From a virus: a DNA stretch of 23,585 bases. Made by a program: the position numbers and the translations under genes. Within the stretch, counting starts at the first letter, position 1. Each line of letters starts with the position of its first letter. Below, in pieces: positions 7,226 through 21,768 of this stretch. The notes beneath the pieces were generated by a model, which saw nothing but the letters and a program-made list of their open reading frames with translations, ran no database searches and had not been told where the DNA came from. The stretch spans positions 1 through 23,585 of IMG/VR virus record IMGVR_UViG_3300022187_000245. The stretch is one strand, 5' to 3'.

Positions 7226-7597
7226 ATGACACCTATGCAAGATAGAACAGAAAAAGGTAAGATAGCGATGCTAGAAGCATTAGAGAAAACATTGGGAGTA
7301 GTTACATCAGCTTGTAAGTTAGTTAATATTACAAGGGAAACACATTATAGATGGCTCAAAGAAGATGAAGCATATAAGTTAGCAGTTAAGAGTATTGATG
7401 ATGTAGCGATAGACTTTGCAGAAAGCCAACTACACAAACAGATAGGCAAAGGTAAAACACAAGCCACTATATTCTACCTAAAGACTAAAGGCAAGAAAAG
7501 AGGTTATGTAGAGAAACAAGAGTTAGATATATCGGGAGAGTTTAAGCCTATTACAATAACTCTAATGCGAGATGATGAAAGCGAAACTAACGGATAA
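7226..7597 (+). CDS. terS: Terminase small subunit
   Basis: 123 residues starting at ATG 7226, 9 nt after the ParB-like gene. A helix-turn-helix lies at about residues 22-45 ('LGVVTSACKLVNITRETHYR' then a Trp-Leu), followed by 'AIDFAESQLHKQIGKGKTQA' and 'TIFYLKTKGKKRGYVEKQEL', the central oligomerization and basic region typical of TerS (phBC6A51-like). The C-terminal end overlaps the large-subunit gene by 26 nt. TerS recognises the packaging site and activates TerL; DNA packaging starts nearby. Confidence 0.85.
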   Translation: MTPMQDRTEKGKIAMLEALEKTLGVVTSACKLVNITRETHYRWLKEDEAYKLAVKSIDDVAIDFAESQLHKQIGKGKTQATIFYLKTKGKKRGYVEKQELDISGEFKPITITLMRDDESETNG

Positions 7598-8879
7598 ACA
7601 ATGGTTAGCGATTGACTACCTAACAGACAAGACCACAACAGAAGTACTGTATGGTGGTGCTGCTGGTGGTGGTAAGAGTTTCTTGGGTTGTGCTTGGATT
7701 ATATGGTTATGCACTTCACACGATGGTATAAGATGTATGATAGGTCGTAGTAAGCTAGACAGCCTAAAGAAAACAACACTAAACACTTTCTTTGATGTAT
7801 GTAGTCAATGGGGGATAGAAGCCAACACACATTACAAATACAACGCATCAAGTAACATCATAACGTTTTACAATGGTTCAGAGGTTATACTAAAAGACTT
7901 ATTCCAATACCCATCAGATAGGAACTTTGATAGTCTAGGTTCATTAGAACTTACTGCTGCATTTATAGATGAGTGCAACCAAATAACAGAGAAAGCTAAA
8001 CAGATAGTAAGCAGTAGGATAAGATACAAGCTAGACCAATACAATCTAATACCAAAGGTTCTTATGACTTGCAACCCTAGTAAAGAATGGGTATATAGTA
8101 CGTTCTACAAACCACACAAAGAGAATAGGCTACCTAAATATCGGAAGTTTATACAATCGTTAGTAACCGATAATAGGCATATATCTAAGCACTACAAAGA
8201 CCAGCTAGAGAAACTCGACCACATAAGTAAGCAACGACTACTATATGGTAATTGGGAGTATGACGATAGCGAAGATAAGCTAATAAACTACAACGCTATA
8301 CTAGGTGCATTTGAATTACAAGACACTCCTAGTGGTACAGGTTACATAACTGCTGACATCGCAAGGTTTGGTAAAGATAAGACAGTAATAATCTATTGGA
8401 ATGGACTAAGAGCCGAGTATTTTAAGGTGCTAGACACTAATAGTATTACACAAGCAGCAGATGAGATACGCACAATACAGAGAAACTACAACGTATCACT
8501 AGGTAATATTATAGTCGATGATGATGGTGTAGGTGGTGGTGTTAAGGATATATTGAGATGTAAAGGCTTTGTAAACAATTCTAAGGCACTTAAAAAAGAA
8601 AACTATATCAACCTTAAGACACAATGCTATTATGCTCTTAGCGAGGCTCTAAATAAGTCTAAGGTGTATATTAACTGCACTAATATAACCCACAAGAATT
8701 ATATTATACAAGAATTAGAGCAAGTAAGGCGTAAGAACTTTGATAAGGACACAAAGCTACAACTGATAAGTAAAGATGAGGTTAAAAGTGCTATTGGTCG
8801 TTCTCCTGACTTTAGTGATGCTTTAGCTATGCGAATGTACTATGAACTAAAACCACAAGGTGTTTACTATGTGCAATAA
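7572..8879 (+). CDS. terL: Terminase large subunit
   Basis: 435 residues with both parts of a TerL. ATPase: Walker A GGAAGGGKS (28-36), Walker B with Phe-Ile-Asp-Glu (131-134), and coupling motif MTCNPS (165-170). Nuclease: acidic residues in 'ITADIARFGKDKTVI' (Asp 262), the 'IIVDDDGVGGGVKD' segment (Asp 316-318) and 'SPDFSDALAMR' (Asp 413, 416), arranged as in an RNase H-like fold. This motor pumps DNA into the prohead through the portal and cuts it. Length is normal. The two candidate starts (7572, 7575) differ by one Met. The gene is followed directly by a GC-rich hairpin. Confidence 0.95.
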   Translation: MMKAKLTDKQWLAIDYLTDKTTTEVLYGGAAGGGKSFLGCAWIIWLCTSHDGIRCMIGRSKLDSLKKTTLNTFFDVCSQWGIEANTHYKYNASSNIITFYNGSEVILKDLFQYPSDRNFDSLGSLELTAAFIDECNQITEKAKQIVSSRIRYKLDQYNLIPKVLMTCNPSKEWVYSTFYKPHKENRLPKYRKFIQSLVTDNRHISKHYKDQLEKLDHISKQRLLYGNWEYDDSEDKLINYNAILGAFELQDTPSGTGYITADIARFGKDKTVIIYWNGLRAEYFKVLDTNSITQAADEIRTIQRNYNVSLGNIIVDDDGVGGGVKDILRCKGFVNNSKALKKENYINLKTQCYYALSEALNKSKVYINCTNITHKNYIIQELEQVRRKNFDKDTKLQLISKDEVKSAIGRSPDFSDALAMRMYYELKPQGVYYVQ

Positions 8880-8990: not shown

Positions 8991-9641
8991 ATGGATTTAG
9001 TTATTAACAACACAAATTACTCTATACCGACAAGCTGGTCGCAAGTATCTCTTGGTAAGTATATGGACTTTATGTTAAGTGTAGATGGTGTTGAAGATGA
9101 GTTAGAGAAAACGATAGCTACTATTAGTGCTTTTACTAATGCACCTAAGAAACTATTACAAGGTTGTAAGAAGTCAGATATAGATGCAGTAATGGAACAA
9201 CTAGCAAAGCTAATGGACAACGAAGCTAATAAAGACCTCAACCTAATTATAACGATTGATGGTATAGATTATGGCTTCCACCCTAACTTACACGAACTAA
9301 AGCTAAAAGAGTTTGTAGATTTAGATAATAAACTTGGAGATGGTTGGAGTGCTATGGATAGTGTAATGGCTATCTTATACAGACCTATCATAGAACAAAA
9401 AGGCGATAAGTACAAGGTAGAGGAATATGACTTTAGAACTGCTAAGAAAAGAGCAGAGATATTTAGAGATAATCTAAGTGTAGATACTGTAAATGGTGCT
9501 GCTAGTTTTTTTTTGACTATCGCAACGGATTACATAGCCACTACGCAAGTTTATTCAAAGAACCTGTCGAGGAGAGAGAGGCGCAAACTTTTAAGACAGA
9601 AGAAGAACAATTTAACGAAAAGTACGGCTGGTACAGTTTAA
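8991..9641 (+). CDS. Tail assembly chaperone, unshifted product (lambda gpG analogue)
   Basis: 216 residues. The N-terminal half is mixed ('NTNYSIPTSWSQVSLGKYMD') followed by helical segments, including 'DGWSAMDSVMAILYRPIIEQ', a pattern of Bacteroidota phage tail chaperones. A run of nine T residues (9506-9514) near codon 173 lies just after a zero-frame A-S-F-F, and the -1 frame from there encodes a conserved-looking extension to 9763. The zero-frame continuation is 42 residues of basic sequence (NLSRRERRKLLRQKKNN) ending at 9641. The G-type product helps tail assembly around the tape measure. It is separated from the tape measure gene by about 6 kb, an unusual distance. Confidence 0.75.
   Translation: MDLVINNTNYSIPTSWSQVSLGKYMDFMLSVDGVEDELEKTIATISAFTNAPKKLLQGCKKSDIDAVMEQLAKLMDNEANKDLNLIITIDGIDYGFHPNLHELKLKEFVDLDNKLGDGWSAMDSVMAILYRPIIEQKGDKYKVEEYDFRTAKKRAEIFRDNLSVDTVNGAASFFLTIATDYIATTQVYSKNLSRRERRKLLRQKKNNLTKSTAGTV
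9506..9514 (+). promoter_or_regulatory. T9 slippery site for -1 frameshifting
   Basis: Nine consecutive T in zero frame reading AGT TTT TTT TTG. It contains the heptamers T_TTT_TTT (9506-9512) and T_TTT_TTG (9509-9515), both typical -1 slip sites. The -1 frame has a TAG stop directly before the run (9503-9505) and no start codon nearby, so it can only be reached by slippage here. Transcriptional slippage on the homopolymer is the alternative mechanism. Confidence 0.75.
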
Positions 9642-9763
9642 TTTATAATTTAGCTAATGGCGATATATTAAAATTTGATGAGGTGTTAGAGTTATCGGTA
9701 AACGAATGCTTTAACTTCTTAGCGTACCAAAAAGATTTAACACACATACAGAATAGAAGATGA
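9506..9763 (+). CDS. -1 frame extension of the tail assembly chaperone (lambda gpGT analogue, C-terminal part)
   Basis: The -1 frame opens at the T run and continues to TGA 9761-9763, which overlaps the next gene's ATG at 9760 (ATGA). It adds about 83 residues, including 'FNEKYGWYSLIYNLANGDIL' and 'FDEVLELSVNECFNFLAYQK', a coherent folded-domain pattern with aromatic and acidic residues, typical of the T part of tail chaperones. The fused product would be about 257 residues. There is no independent start codon before a late GTG, so it depends on frameshifting at 9506-9514. Bases 9513-9641 encode protein in both frames. GT-type products contact the tape measure and recruit tube protein during tail assembly. 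Confidence 0.7.
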   Translation, partial: FFFDYRNGLHSHYASLFKEPVEEREAQTFKTEEEQFNEKYGWYSLIYNLANGDILKFDEVLELSVNECFNFLAYQKDLTHIQNRR

Positions 9764-10254
9764 TACTAACGACAGGAACAGAGATTAAAAACGTAACACT
9801 TCAAATGCTTTATAGGATATTTGAAGAAATAGGTAGTAGTCATACACAAATACAAACCACTACAATAGGCGATATATTTGAGATTGACTTAACAGAAACT
9901 ACATACCCACTACTTCACGTTTCTACTGCTACTGCTAACTTTGCACAACACACATTAACATATAACTTTCAGTTTATAGTTATGGACTTAGTAAGCAAAG
10001 ATGAGAGTAATGAGAGAGATGTACTTAGTGATACGCTAGAAACTATTGGCGATGTAATTAGTTTGCTTAAAAATCAAACTGCATCGTTTGAACGCATACC
10101 TGACTTCCAAACAGAAGTAGCTATAAGTCCTAGTGTTAGTTGTGAGCCTTTTACAGAGAGGTTCGATAATGAGGTTAGTGGCTGGACTGCTAGTATCAGT
10201 ATAGAGGTAGGATTTAACGCAAGTCAATGCAGTGGAGATGTTGCTTATGAGTAA
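9760..10254 (+). CDS. Tail terminator-like / tail completion protein
   Basis: 164 residues, translationally coupled by ATGA to the frameshift extension. The pattern 'TTYPLLHVSTATANFAQHTL' then 'YNFQFIVMDLVSKDESNERD' plus 'VLSDTLETIGDVISLLKN' and a C-terminal 'FTERFDNEVSGWTASISIEV' strand group is a common arrangement in Bacteroidota phages next to tail genes, and resembles tail terminators and neck proteins in length and predicted fold (alpha-beta with an exposed beta sheet). No catalytic site is visible. The role is assigned mainly from position. Confidence 0.5.
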   Translation: MILTTGTEIKNVTLQMLYRIFEEIGSSHTQIQTTTIGDIFEIDLTETTYPLLHVSTATANFAQHTLTYNFQFIVMDLVSKDESNERDVLSDTLETIGDVISLLKNQTASFERIPDFQTEVAISPSVSCEPFTERFDNEVSGWTASISIEVGFNASQCSGDVAYE

Positions 10255-15619: not shown

Positions 15620-15764
15620 GGTAATAGAACTAAAACTAATGGGCGATGTTATCGCAGTAGGGTTTAGTGCATTTAAAGATGTACTACCTATGATAACTAA
15701 GTATAAAGATAAAACAGATTTTAACGAGATAATACTAGGAAAATGGCAGATAGGAGTGAAGTAA
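15612..15764 (+). CDS. 50-residue protein overlapping the tape measure start
   Basis: ATG 15612 overlaps the previous stop (8 nt) and the frame runs to TAA 15762-15764, 22 nt into the tape measure gene. The product is neutral and partly hydrophobic ('KLMGDVIAVGFSAFKDVLPM'). It fills an otherwise empty 120-nt gap. A small ORF between fibre and tape measure could be a tail chaperone or connector, but no similarity is visible, so function is unknown. Confidence 0.45.
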   Translation: MDKVIELKLMGDVIAVGFSAFKDVLPMITKYKDKTDFNEIILGKWQIGVK

Positions 15765-17437
15765 TAATGGAACTAAAAGCCGATGTTGGCGATGCTAAGA
15801 AAAACTTAGAGCAAGTCAAATCATCGGTACAAGACATAGGTGAAGCAAGTAAGACTACTGCAAAAGCCACAACAGGTATTAGAGATGGTATTAAGGGTGT
15901 AGGAGTAGCATTAAAGGCTGCTGGTATTGGTTTAGCACTTAAAGCATTTGAGATGCTTAGTGAAATCTTTATGAAGAACCAAAAGACTGCTGACTTCTTT
16001 AATACTGCATTTGAGGCTACAAGTATAGCTATCAATGACTTTGTAAACTTTGTATTCAATAACTTTGGTAAGGTTGCAGACTTCTTTAAAGACGTTTTTG
16101 AGAACCCTGTTGAGAATTTGAAGTCATTGGGTAATGCAATTAAAGATAATTTAATAGAACGCTTTAATAGTGCAATAGAGGTAGCTGGTTTACTTGCCAA
16201 CACTATTAGTTTGTTAGTTGCAGGTAAATTTAAGGAAGCTGGTGTAACCATTAAGGAAGCTGGTAAAGAAATGGTCGATGTAGTTACAGGTGTTGATGAT
16301 AGCACTACTAAGATAGCAGAAACATTTAACGAGGTAACGGAAGCAGTAGTAGATTATACTAAAGAAACTATAAATAGTGCTAAGGCTAATGTAGCACTAC
16401 AAAAACAAGCCGAACTATCACAAGTTAAGATACAAGGTCTTATAGAGAGTTATGATAGACAAGCAGAGAAGTTAAGGCAAGTAAGAGATGATGAAAACCA
16501 AACTTTTGAAGATAGAATAAAGGCTAATGAAGAACTTGGTGTAATATTAGAAGAACAAGCAAAACAGATGTTAGCTTTGCAACAAATACAAGTTAAGGCT
16601 GCACAAATTGAATACGATAAATTACAAAATCAAGAAAACTTAATAGCACTTACAGAAGCACAAAACGAGTTACTAGCTATTGAAGCACAAATAACAGGCT
16701 TTCAATCAGAACAACTTACTAATCAAGTATCTTTACAAAGAGAGTTACAAGATGTAAAGAAGGAATTAGCATTAGAGGGTGTAAGCGAAAGAGAAAGAGA
16801 GTTAATAGAAGTAGAGCAACAGTATGATGAACTATTTAGATTAGCCGAAAAAAGTGGTACTGATATTACTGCATTAGAAGAACAGAAAGCTAAAGCCATT
16901 AATGAGATACGCAGACAACAAGCTATGGCAGACTTAGATACTGCTAACGCTAGTTTAGAGAATATAAAACAAATAATGGGCGAAGAAACTAATGCTGGTA
17001 AAGCAGCAGCAGTAGCACAAGCAACAATAAACACTTATCAAGGTGTATCAGAAGCTATTGCAAGTAGTCCACCACCATTAAACTTTGTATTAGCTGCTAC
17101 AACACTTGCTGCTGGTTTGCAAAACATAAATAAGATACTATCAGTACAAGAGCCACAATTTGCACAAGGTGGTTTAGTAGGTGGTTATGGTACAGGAACG
17201 AGTGATAGTGTTAGTGCAAGACTATCTAAGGGCGAAAGTGTAATAAATGCACGTAGTACAAGAATGTTTAAACCACTTCTAAGCGCAATTAACGAAGCTG
17301 GTGGTGGTAGGTCATTCGCAAGTGGCGAGGGTGTAGGAGGTACGACTATGGGAGTTGTAAAAGCCTTTGTAGTAGCTGATGATATGACTAAGCAACAAGA
17401 TAAATTAAGTAAAATAAGAAGAAAAGCAACAATTTAA
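15743..17437 (+). CDS. Tape measure protein
   Basis: 564 residues. Residues 1-45 are a charged helix; 45-65 and 145-165 are hydrophobic; a long coiled-coil region spans about 205-400 ('QAELSQVKIQGLIESYDRQA', many Glu, Gln, Lys and Ala). Near the C-terminus, 'GKAAAVAQATINTYQGVSEA' and 'FVLAATTLAAGLQNINKILS' precede a Gly-rich segment at 475-500 ('FAQGGLVGGYGTGTSDSVSA') and 'RLSKGESVINARSTRMFKPL'. This arrangement is typical of siphovirus tape measure proteins. The length implies a fairly short tail of about 85 nm using 1.5 A per residue. It overlaps the small upstream gene. Confidence 0.85.
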   Translation: MADRSEVIMELKADVGDAKKNLEQVKSSVQDIGEASKTTAKATTGIRDGIKGVGVALKAAGIGLALKAFEMLSEIFMKNQKTADFFNTAFEATSIAINDFVNFVFNNFGKVADFFKDVFENPVENLKSLGNAIKDNLIERFNSAIEVAGLLANTISLLVAGKFKEAGVTIKEAGKEMVDVVTGVDDSTTKIAETFNEVTEAVVDYTKETINSAKANVALQKQAELSQVKIQGLIESYDRQAEKLRQVRDDENQTFEDRIKANEELGVILEEQAKQMLALQQIQVKAAQIEYDKLQNQENLIALTEAQNELLAIEAQITGFQSEQLTNQVSLQRELQDVKKELALEGVSERERELIEVEQQYDELFRLAEKSGTDITALEEQKAKAINEIRRQQAMADLDTANASLENIKQIMGEETNAGKAAAVAQATINTYQGVSEAIASSPPPLNFVLAATTLAAGLQNINKILSVQEPQFAQGGLVGGYGTGTSDSVSARLSKGESVINARSTRMFKPLLSAINEAGGGRSFASGEGVGGTTMGVVKAFVVADDMTKQQDKLSKIRRKATI

Positions 17438-17447
17438 AAATAAGATT

Positions 17448-18719
17448 ATGCCTTGTAAAGAATGTGATAACGGAAAGTATAAATGGGGTGATGGTGAATG
17501 TAAATACGACACCCTACAAGAGTGCGAGAAAGCACACGATACTTATGACATCGTAGAACTGATTGTAGATGAGAATAACGAAGAACTAGCAATAGATGCT
17601 ATATCTTTGGTAACAAGTCCAGCAATAGAAACTGACTTTGTATATTTTAACGACATAGAGAGCAACTTAACACTTGCTAAGGTAAACGAAGAAGAAAGAC
17701 TGCTAGTAAGTCCAGCACTTATACCTTACAAACAGATATACAGGTACGATGCTAACAAAGATAGAAACTACTATGTGTATTTTACTGCTGATACAGTACG
17801 TAAGGCTGCTGAAGCGTATATGAAGCACCAAAACACTAACAATGCGACCTTACAACACGAAGAAAAGGTTACAGGAGTGCATACAGTAGAGAGTTGGATA
17901 GTAGAAGATAGCAAAAACGATAAGAGTAACTTATATGGCTATGAATTGCCAAAGGGTACTTGGTTTGTATCTATGCGAGTAAACAACGATGAGGTTTGGG
18001 AACGTATCAAGAGTGGCGAGTTGAAAGGTTTAAGTATAGAGGGTTACTTTGTCGATAAGATGGAAACACTAGCTAAGACTGATAAGAAAAAGAAAAAGAA
18101 AAAGAAGTACGCACAAGTAGGCGAGATAGATGGCTTCCCTGTATTTGACAATATAGAAGATGCAGTTGAGGTTGCTAAAGAGTTAGGTTGCGAGGGTTAC
18201 CACGAACACGAATTAGAGGGTAATACAGTATATATGCCTTGTTCTGACCACGAGATACTAGACACACTAGCAACTATCTTAGAAGAAGATTGTGGGTGTT
18301 TTGATACTGACTTAATTACACCTAATCCTTGTCAAGAGGGGTACGAGCCAATAGGACATAAGATAAAAGATGGTCGTAAAGTACCTAACTGCGTACCTAT
18401 TGAAGCAGAAGTAGAATTAGAAAGTTATACTGACTATCCTAAAGGTGCTACTAGCAACGCTAAGAGAGCAATAGAGTGGAAAGAAGAAAATGGTAGTGAC
18501 TGTGGTACACAAGTAGGCTGGACAAGAGCAAGACAACTAGCAGATAGAAAGCCTATAAGCAGAGATACCATAGCACGTATGGCAAGTTTTAAAAGACACG
18601 AACAACATAAAGATGTACCCTATTCAGAGGGTTGTGGTGGTTTGATGTACGATGCTTGGGGAGGCGATAGTGGTATTAATTGGGCTATAAGAAAATTAGA
18701 TAAAATAGACACAAAATAA
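17448..18719 (+). CDS. XkdF-type prohead protease with extra domains
   Basis: 423 residues. The N-terminus is Cys-rich ('MPCKECDNGKYKWGDGECKY'). The protease part (about 35-205) follows the XkdF pattern: 'NNATLQHEEKVTGVHTVESW' with a His at 137, and 'GLSIEGYF' with a likely nucleophile Ser196. A run of eight Lys (213-220) links to 'DAVEVAKELGCEGYHEHELE' and 'NTVYMPCSDHE', then 'GYEPIGHKIKDGRKVPNCVP' (about 298-317). A C-terminal domain follows: 'YPKGATSNAKRAIEWKEENG' to 'WGGDSGINWAIRKLDKI'. Such fused modules occur in Bacteroidota and T4-like head proteases. It should cleave scaffold and capsid during head maturation. The non-protease modules have no established role. Confidence 0.75.
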   Translation: MPCKECDNGKYKWGDGECKYDTLQECEKAHDTYDIVELIVDENNEELAIDAISLVTSPAIETDFVYFNDIESNLTLAKVNEEERLLVSPALIPYKQIYRYDANKDRNYYVYFTADTVRKAAEAYMKHQNTNNATLQHEEKVTGVHTVESWIVEDSKNDKSNLYGYELPKGTWFVSMRVNNDEVWERIKSGELKGLSIEGYFVDKMETLAKTDKKKKKKKKYAQVGEIDGFPVFDNIEDAVEVAKELGCEGYHEHELEGNTVYMPCSDHEILDTLATILEEDCGCFDTDLITPNPCQEGYEPIGHKIKDGRKVPNCVPIEAEVELESYTDYPKGATSNAKRAIEWKEENGSDCGTQVGWTRARQLADRKPISRDTIARMASFKRHEQHKDVPYSEGCGGLMYDAWGGDSGINWAIRKLDKIDTK

Positions 18720-19770: not shown

Positions 19771-20673
19771 ATGAGTTTTTCAATAACTTCAAACTATTCA
19801 GGTGAACACGCTGGTCAGTATATTGCTGCTGCGTTGAAATCTGCTACATCTCTTGAATACTTAAACGTATTAGAGAATGTAAAAACTAAAAGAAACATCA
19901 CTAAAGTTGCTGGTGCTGATTTAGTAAGAAACGCATCTTGTGATTTTACTGATAGTGGTACACTAACTTTAACAGAAAGAGTATTAGACCCTAAAGAATT
20001 ACAAATCAATGTAGACCTTTGTAAAAAAGACCTACTTGCTGATTGGCAAGCTGCTCAAATGAGAGCTGGTGCGCACAACAGAGATATGTCAGGTGACTTT
20101 ACTGCATTTGTTATGTCTTATCTAAGTGGAACTATTGCTGATGCAGTAGAGAGTTCTATTTGGAGTGGTGCAGATGCTACAACAGGTCAGTTCGAGGGTT
20201 TCTTGACTGCTAGTACAGGTTTATTTGCTGGTGATGCATCAGTAGGTACTGATAGTGCCTCTGCTGCTTATGATGCTAGTAATGTAATTGCTAACATACA
20301 AGGTTTAGTAGCTGCTATTCCAGCACAAGTTTACACTAAAGAAGATTTGTATATCTATATGAACGCTAAAACTTATCGTTTCTATATTTCTGCTATCTCT
20401 GCTTTATCTGCATTCCCTTTCAATCATATGGGTCAATACACTCCTGAATTTGAGGGTGTTAAGATTGCAGTTTGTCAAGGTATGCCTGACAACCAAATGG
20501 TAGCTGCTCAAAAATCTAACTTATTCTTTGGTACAGATTTAATCTCTGACCACTCTGAAATTCGTATGTTAGATATGGCTGACTTAGATGGTTCTGATAA
20601 CATCAGAGTTGTAGCTAAGTTTACAGGTGGAGTTCAGCATGGAATTGGTGCAGACATCGTACACCAATCATAA
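19771..20673 (+). CDS. Major capsid protein (HK97-like)
   Basis: 300 residues directly after the scaffold gene (7-nt gap). The N-terminus contains 'GQYIAAALKSATSLEYLNVL', followed by 'TLTERVLDPKELQINVDLCK', a long helix 'AFVMSYLSGTIADAVESSIW', and a C-terminal sheet 'EGVKIAVCQGMPDNQMVAAQ', 'NLFFGTDLISDHSEIRMLDM', 'VVAKFTGGVQHGIGADIVHQ'. The arrangement (N-arm, spine helix, P- and A-domain strands) is typical of Bacteroidota HK97-fold capsids. Size and position after protease and scaffold support the call. Codon use appears relatively rich in optimal AT codons. Confidence 0.85.
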   Translation: MSFSITSNYSGEHAGQYIAAALKSATSLEYLNVLENVKTKRNITKVAGADLVRNASCDFTDSGTLTLTERVLDPKELQINVDLCKKDLLADWQAAQMRAGAHNRDMSGDFTAFVMSYLSGTIADAVESSIWSGADATTGQFEGFLTASTGLFAGDASVGTDSASAAYDASNVIANIQGLVAAIPAQVYTKEDLYIYMNAKTYRFYISAISALSAFPFNHMGQYTPEFEGVKIAVCQGMPDNQMVAAQKSNLFFGTDLISDHSEIRMLDMADLDGSDNIRVVAKFTGGVQHGIGADIVHQS

Positions 20674-20728: not shown

Positions 20729-21274
20729 ATGGCTTGTGAATTAACAACAGGTAGAGCATTAGATTGTAAAGACATCATCGGTGGTGTAAGAGCAGTTTAT
20801 TTCTGTCAATTAGAAGATGCTACTGTAACTCATAGTGCTGGTTCTGTTTCTGACTTGGATATTACTACGGACTTGTTTAAATACAACGTAGTAAGGGGTA
20901 CTGCTTCATTTACTGAAACAGTAACTGCAAGTGCTGAAAATGGTACGGTATTTTATGAGCCATCAGTAAATGTAAAACTACACAAACTAAGTGTAGCAGA
21001 CCAAAACGAAATTAAATTATTAGCACAAAACAGATTATTAGTATTTGTTGAAACAAATGGTACTAACTCTGCTGGTAAGAGAGTTATCTTTTGCTTAGGT
21101 GTTACTAATGGTATGGAACTTACAACAGGTACTGCTAATAGTGGTGTAGCATTTGGTGATATGAATGGTTACGATTTAACTTTCGTAGGTATGGAAGATA
21201 GTCCAGCTTTAGTAGTTGCAGACTATACTACTACACCTTTCGATAATGCAGATTTTACAGTAACTGTATCGTAA
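20729..21274 (+). CDS. Putative major tail tube protein
   Basis: 181 residues. The start 'MACELTTGRALDCKDIIGGV' (Thr-Gly-Arg...Cys-Lys-Asp...Gly-Gly-(I/V)-(K/R)) is characteristic of a Bacteroidota phage tail tube group. The rest alternates beta strands: 'TASFTETVTASAENGTVFYE', 'PSVNVKLHKLSVADQNEIKL', 'RVIFCLGVTNGMELTTGTAN'. It directly follows the capsid gene and the G6/C6 hairpin and precedes a clear terminator, so it belongs to a highly expressed late unit. The protein at 10404 is the alternative tube candidate. Confidence 0.6.
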   Translation: MACELTTGRALDCKDIIGGVRAVYFCQLEDATVTHSAGSVSDLDITTDLFKYNVVRGTASFTETVTASAENGTVFYEPSVNVKLHKLSVADQNEIKLLAQNRLLVFVETNGTNSAGKRVIFCLGVTNGMELTTGTANSGVAFGDMNGYDLTFVGMEDSPALVVADYTTTPFDNADFTVTVS

Positions 21275-21292
21275 TTATCAATATAATTTAAG

Positions 21293-21322
21293 AAAAAGGT
21301 GGGTTTATCCCACTTTTTTTTT
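21293..21322 (+). terminator. Rho-independent-type terminator
   Basis: AAAAAGGTGGG (21293-21303), loop TTTAT, CCCACTTTTT (from 21309), with the G at 21298 bulged. Nine T residues (21314-21322) follow the stem, the best intrinsic terminator in the window. It ends the unit containing the putative tube protein. The T tract also overlaps a TTTG (21320-21323) that could be a -33 element for the next gene. Confidence 0.8.
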
Positions 21323-21363: not shown

Positions 21364-21768
21364 ATGGTGGTAATAAATAAAGGAGTAGCAAACGAGTTAT
21401 ACTTTAATCTTACAAGTAAGAAAAGATTGACTAGCAGTCCATATATATTTATTAAGTTTACCAATGATATGACTAAACAAAGCTATTTTGTTAATCCTAC
21501 TGAAACTGTTGAGCCTAGACATAGCAAAGTAGACTTTACAGAGGGTACAGATATTAGTTTAGGTGCAGAGGGGTTCTATACTTATGTAATTTATCAAGTT
21601 ACTACTAACGATTTAACTGATGATAGTACATTAACTGATGCAAGGATTATAGAACGAGGTAAGGCATTAGTAAAAGATGCTAGTGTAACAGAGGTATCGT
21701 ATACTCAATACACACCAACAAGCAATAAGAATACAACAAATAGTAACACACAATACATAAGTATATAA
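21364..21768 (+). CDS. Virion structural protein, unknown detail
   Basis: 134 residues. Beta-rich: 'ELYFNLTSKKRLTSSPYIFI', 'KFTNDMTKQSYFVNPTETVE', 'GAEGFYTYVIYQVTTNDLTD' and an acidic 'ARIIERGKALVKDASVTEVS' segment, ending in a Thr/Asn-rich tail. The pattern of 'Y-(I/L)-F-x-F-T-N-D' is often found in small structural proteins beside Bacteroidota tail genes. Its stop overlaps the next start by 1 nt. Its exact place in the virion is unknown. Confidence 0.55.
   Translation: MVVINKGVANELYFNLTSKKRLTSSPYIFIKFTNDMTKQSYFVNPTETVEPRHSKVDFTEGTDISLGAEGFYTYVIYQVTTNDLTDDSTLTDARIIERGKALVKDASVTEVSYTQYTPTSNKNTTNSNTQYISI

Follow-up and report, generated by a model that had tools for sequence, protein, structure and literature searches.

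The tail assembly chaperones gpG and gpGT of phage lambda, which are produced from one gene by a −1 ribosomal frameshift at the slippery sequence GGGAAAG, are the closest described products of this type, and frameshifted tail chaperones are textbook cases of ribosomal recoding. Their gene usually lies directly upstream of the tape measure gene, a position that is not defining by itself. Another group of related systems uses programmed transcriptional slippage at runs of nine A or nine T, as described for dnaX of Thermus, mxiE and spa13 of Shigella and IS elements (PMC1088944, PMC5009743). Runs of 9 A or T cause efficient slippage in vivo, the RNA-DNA hybrid being 9–10 bp long (PMC5009743), and in many bacteria selection against such runs can be seen at a length of nine (PMC1088944). 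Frameshifted tail chaperones and slippage at A9/T9 are each known, and a search of the open-access literature turned up no case of their combination, polymerase slippage in a phage tail chaperone (subscription papers fell mostly outside this search). The gene presented here resembles lambda G/GT in that it would give two products from one start, the longer form by a −1 extension, and in that it sits among the structural genes of a long-tailed phage, which include one for a tape measure protein. The main differences are that at least nine T's and nothing else form its slip site, whereas that of lambda is a mixed heptamer, that the zero-frame tail continues for 22 codons or more in every representative, and that no convincing similarity to named chaperones was found. 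Moreover, it follows the gene for the large terminase subunit, and about 6 kb with other genes separate it from the downstream tape measure gene, which the lambda gene immediately precedes; we treat the missing adjacency as a difference and not as proof against a chaperone role. With the A9/T9 slippage genes it shares an unbroken run of nine, a conserved run length, a third frame that is closed early and the avoidance of such runs elsewhere, but those cases are bacterial or IS genes, while this one is a phage gene in which slippage is predicted.

The window, that is the whole stretch of viral DNA analysed (23,585 nucleotides, IMG/VR record IMGVR_UViG_3300022187_000245), carries on its plus strand a zero-frame ORF at 8991–9641, encoding a G-like protein of 216 amino acids. 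The T9 run occupies 9506–9514 in the register AGT TTT TTT TTG, read from 9504, and holds the two heptamers T_TTT_TTT (9506–9512) and T_TTT_TTG (9509–9515). A TAG at 9503–9505 closes the −1 frame immediately 5′ of the run, and from there the −1 ORF for the T-like part (9506–9763, 85 codons) has no start codon in its first 59 codons, the earliest ATG, GTG or TTG being a GTG at 9683. The zero-frame tail of the G-like ORF and the beginning of the T-like part overlap in a dual-coding stretch at 9515–9641, and in the third frame a TGA (9514–9516) stands directly past the slip, where it would terminate U8 or U11 transcripts. At its 3′ end, the TGA of the T-like part (9761–9763) overlaps the ATG of the next gene (9760–9762) in the sequence ATGA (9760–9763), which is near-constant in close relatives. 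On rechecking the sequence, the first-pass annotation proved right about the TAG, the T9 run, the zero-frame stop ending at 9641, the −1 ORF and the ATGA overlap, and also about the two heptamers in the zero frame and the absence of a start in the −1 frame for most of its length. Its remark that a TAG directly precedes T9 is true of the window but not of several relatives, which have AAG or CAG there and in which the −1 ORF opens farther upstream. As a rarity, the T9 run must be rejected: this AT-rich window contains 2 such runs against 1.95 expected, so the significance of the site comes from its conservation. The second T9 of the window (21314–21322) is intergenic, between 20729–21274 and 21364–21768, and is possibly part of a terminator.

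The genes around the slip gene on the plus strand are those for the small terminase subunit (7226–7597, PHROG 309) and, directly upstream, the large terminase subunit (7572–8879, PHROG 2 and Pfam Terminase_6N), followed downstream by a gene of the structural module for a protein of 164 amino acids with no assigned function (9760–10254), a tape measure protein of 564 amino acids (15743–17437), recognised by matches to tape-measure PHROGs and by sequence features, and a candidate for the major capsid protein (19771–20673, Pfam Phage_capsid and PHROGs). A protease-like gene is located at 17448–18719. In eight relatives (L371, L372, L375, L377, L404, L407, L415 and L428) the head-protease-like gene carries A10 or A11 runs inside it or near its end, and in places the frame ends soon after the run, which could reflect a second slippage gene or assembly errors.

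Scans of IMG/VR, together with one scan of bacterial genomes in which only two metagenome-assembled contigs matched, gave 367 loci with the T-like domain. These represent 245 distinct junctions, and 243 of them are informative after leaving out L335, where the junction is absent, and L028, where the two parts are fused in a single frame by a T10. In every one of the 243 the T-like part lies in the −1 frame of the upstream ORF at an unbroken T run, which is T9 in 220, T10 in 22 and T12 in one, and never T8 or shorter; the count includes L036, whose upstream ORF is broken but whose junction is intact, and L254, whose upstream part is too short to judge well. In the T10 relatives the coding is shifted, so that the −1 relation is preserved. 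Close to the window the register is AGT, GCT or GGT followed by TTT TTT TTG, and in most of the distant relatives it is GTT or CTT followed by TTT TTT and TAC, TGG or TAT, with some having TTT TTT TTT TAC. The tree of 233 junctions has a total length of about 56 amino-acid substitutions per site. Thus the slippery run sought in an alignment of homologues is conserved as T9 to T12 in all 243 junctions, the −1 frame is conserved with it, and among the junctions collected a single continuous frame was met only in L028 with its T10, which stands among near-identical T9 sisters. A programmed −1 frameshift that fuses the G-like and T-like parts is nearly certain. Some of the contigs deserve a comment of their own. 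L318 and L319 carry the family gene and were binned in metagenome-assembled genomes named Euryarchaeota and Pseudooceanicola, and are probably mis-binned phage contigs. L036 seems chimeric, its first half being like L026 and its second like L029–L031, and a deletion ahead of the run breaks the frame. The T10 of L028 is at 551–560 of that contig, within a continuous frame of 257 amino acids, and could be either a real variant or a homopolymer error.

The family is a large, mostly uncultured group of marine phages. Its cultured members are the Nonlabens (Persicivirga) phages P12024L and P12024S (Inhavirus), which have a homologous gene after the large terminase gene, again with a T9 and with its second half lying in the −1 frame; a tblastn search with the G and T parts of several lineages found no further cultured relatives. 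Since these cultured members infect Bacteroidota, the earlier description of the window as a Bacteroidota-type phage is borne out. The loci correspond to genes 40 and 41 of P12024L (JQ823123.1, L038: 3992–4686) and genes 38 and 39 of P12024S (JQ823122.1, L368: 1501–2195), annotated as two separate hypothetical proteins in each genome, with the frameshift unannotated. From their sequences, both pairs look like the halves of one gene frameshifted at T9. Compared with the window, the register is CTT TTT TTT TAT and the identity is about 29%.

Past the run, both reading frames seem to be under constraint. Conservation of the T-like part as protein includes its start-less first codons (FFxxYR). In 84 of 84 diverse representatives the zero frame has no stop in the first 22 codons past the slip, where synonymous resampling of the −1 frame codons predicts 40.6 such cases, and the third frame is shut within 5 codons past the slip in 80 of 84, where 60.8 would be expected; shared ancestry is not accounted for in these numbers, which should be taken as strong hints. 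The proposal that the bases past T9 code in two frames thus holds up well. The predicted fusion has 257 amino acids, 174 of them shared with the G-like protein and 83 from the −1 frame, and it is very probably expressed. Ribosomal and transcriptional routes lead to the identical 257-aa protein, so that mass spectrometry, while able to demonstrate the fusion, does not distinguish between the two. An AlphaFold2 model, computed for the fused reading of L028 as it stands in that contig and aligned with 88 partial relatives, has a mean pLDDT of 88.6 and a pTM of 0.79, with T-like helices at 204–256 and a flexible linker around 190–200, and predicts with confidence that the fusion folds as one protein.

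A fold search with this model against BFVD returned full-length homologues of 258–267 amino acids with TM scores of 0.7–0.8, and the P12024S product I6R9M9 was also matched. Most of the matches are uncharacterised, and one weak match is named tail assembly chaperone (E 0.022). Three of the matched entries, A0A6J5N0W0, A0A516L611 and A0A516L5A8, are homologues of fused size (258–267 aa), for which a single frame and a joined annotation are both possible. There was no significant match in the PDB fold search, and Pfam and NCBIfam searches for homology to known chaperones gave nothing decisive and no Pfam family. In addition, three members of one alignment of the family match a 'tail protein' PHROG with E values down to 0.0002. 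The G-like half matches PHROG 32199 and the T-like half, more weakly (best E 0.0004, in relatives), PHROG 38404, neither with an assigned function; PHROGs keep the two as unrelated families, whereas the evidence here is that they are halves of one frameshifted gene. A role as tail assembly chaperone, as the first-pass annotation had it, is thus inferred from the G/GT-like architecture and from synteny, with a tape measure gene downstream, and not from homology to a tested chaperone.

Considering the constant T run, we propose that plain messages would be translated into the 216-aa G-like protein and that one net frame shift at T9 would give the 257-aa fusion. The host RNA polymerase would slip on the nine T's and make a minority of U10 messages, which would then be translated in the ordinary way; some of the fusion may also come from ribosomes slipping on the same U's, and U8 or U11 messages would stop at once at the TGA and give a short form of 174–175 amino acids. 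The two proteins would then serve as the small and the extended tail assembly chaperone, like gpG and gpGT of lambda. The polymerase is probably the main slipping machine, transcriptional slippage being favoured over purely ribosomal slippage, and we also consider probable the explanation as a whole, namely a two-protein gene with mainly polymerase slippage at T9 whose products are a short and a long tail chaperone. A ribosomal −1 slip on a T run requires only T_TTT_TTT, that is T7. The run is never shorter than nine although seven would suffice for the ribosome, and the phase-1 relatives have only one heptamer, with the extra T's outside it, so that transcriptional slippage fits better. On the tree of 233 junctions, the positions flanking the heptamer are in the states Tx in 164, xT in 64, TT in 5 and xx in none, which means that a T is missing on the left or on the right and never on both sides. 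By itself the absence of T8 was not significant in Markov simulations on trees (P = 0.44 and 0.13), because there were only about ten changes of flanking state and because part of the absence may stem from coding needs, namely for hydrophobic residues in the −1 frame. Length selection proven from the two flanking sites was thus given up as a claim and is kept as a hint only.

The other genes of these phages also bear on the question. In 1032 of them, runs of nine or more T were found 3 times against 9.3 expected and runs of nine or more A 25 times against 78 expected, while T7 (91 against 113) and A7 (394 against 416) were nearer expectation; a different, overlapping gene set had no run of nine or more T against 6 expected. 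The avoidance of T runs in other genes is moderate and starts at T8. Furthermore, in another gene set the in-frame T_TTT_TTT is depleted about twofold (47 against 95), as ribosomal slipping predicts. Across the remaining genes at the family loci, two successive Phe residues are strongly biased in their codons, being written TTC TTT 185 times against 57 expected and TTT TTT 183 times against 292 expected.

The depletion of the in-frame heptamer belongs to the purely ribosomal explanation, in which pairs of tRNA-Phe would slip by −1 on U_UUU_UUU or U_UUU_UUG without a stimulator and the extra T's would be kept by the two-frame coding. This explanation also agrees with the presence of T_TTT_TTT in the zero frame at all 243 junctions, but any T9 contains this heptamer in every register, so that finding it conserved does not by itself speak for the ribosome. 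Ribosomal −1 shifts are the known mechanism of tail chaperones (PMC5009743). For the 84 representatives no stimulatory RNA structure was detected (mean z about −0.07 downstream and −0.08 upstream), and folding of single sequences and of the alignment, up- and downstream, gave no supported consensus and no upstream hairpin. Shifts of the lambda type, at a low level, require no stimulator, so the missing structure is neutral toward the ribosome, low efficiency needing none; nor does a bare T9 need a ribosomal stimulator or an upstream hairpin for polymerase slippage. What a purely ribosomal shift leaves unexplained is the absence of T7 and T8 junctions across registers with changing flanking residues, and the T's beyond the heptamer in the phase-1 relatives. 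We therefore regard it as possible but the less probable mechanism. Of the claim of a frameshift at the T run, the conserved −1 fusion stands (243/243), and the part that places a ribosomal slip at the heptamers is doubtful, since the run is never shorter than nine.

That the T-like domain is made separately and unfused, by reinitiation or from an internal start, is highly improbable. It would agree with the annotation of a 55-aa gene in P12024L and P12024S, whose ATG lies at the upstream stop, and with the two families in PHROGs, but the first 59 codons of the −1 frame are start-less in the window and yet conserved as protein, and the T run would be left without a role. Even less credible is a switch at the DNA level, in which replication slippage between T9 and T10 would toggle the fusion within a population. 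L028, whose T10 gives one 257-aa frame while its sisters have T9, would be such a variant, but it is one fused case in about 244 junctions, the T10 relatives have shifted their coding and kept the −1 relation, and the length of a contingency tract would be free to vary. The least probable explanation, a sequencing error or a decayed gene whose true form is one continuous frame, for which the error-prone nature of homopolymers and the fused-size homologues in BFVD could be cited, was rejected because the same layout occurs in hundreds of contigs and in the two complete genomes of the cultured phages P12024L and P12024S, because independent assemblies from other samples (L002/L003) carry an identical 8991–9763, and because the zero-frame tail is constrained.

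The finding gives a joint identity to two PHROG families without assigned function and corrects the annotation of two cultured phages. It also provides a simple signature by which the gene can be found in viral metagenomes, namely nine or more T's in a row at a −1 junction downstream of the large terminase gene. If the ribosome acts alone, the gene would be a known kind of system with an unusually uniform slip site. A slip site that always has at least nine T's, in any register, suggests that the same problem has been solved by transcriptional slippage, as in dnaX, and we lean slightly toward the view that this group of marine phages sets the proportion in which its two tail assembly chaperones are made by slippage of the host RNA polymerase and not of the ribosome. 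If the polymerase reading is true, the stoichiometry of the tail proteins would be set when the message is made.
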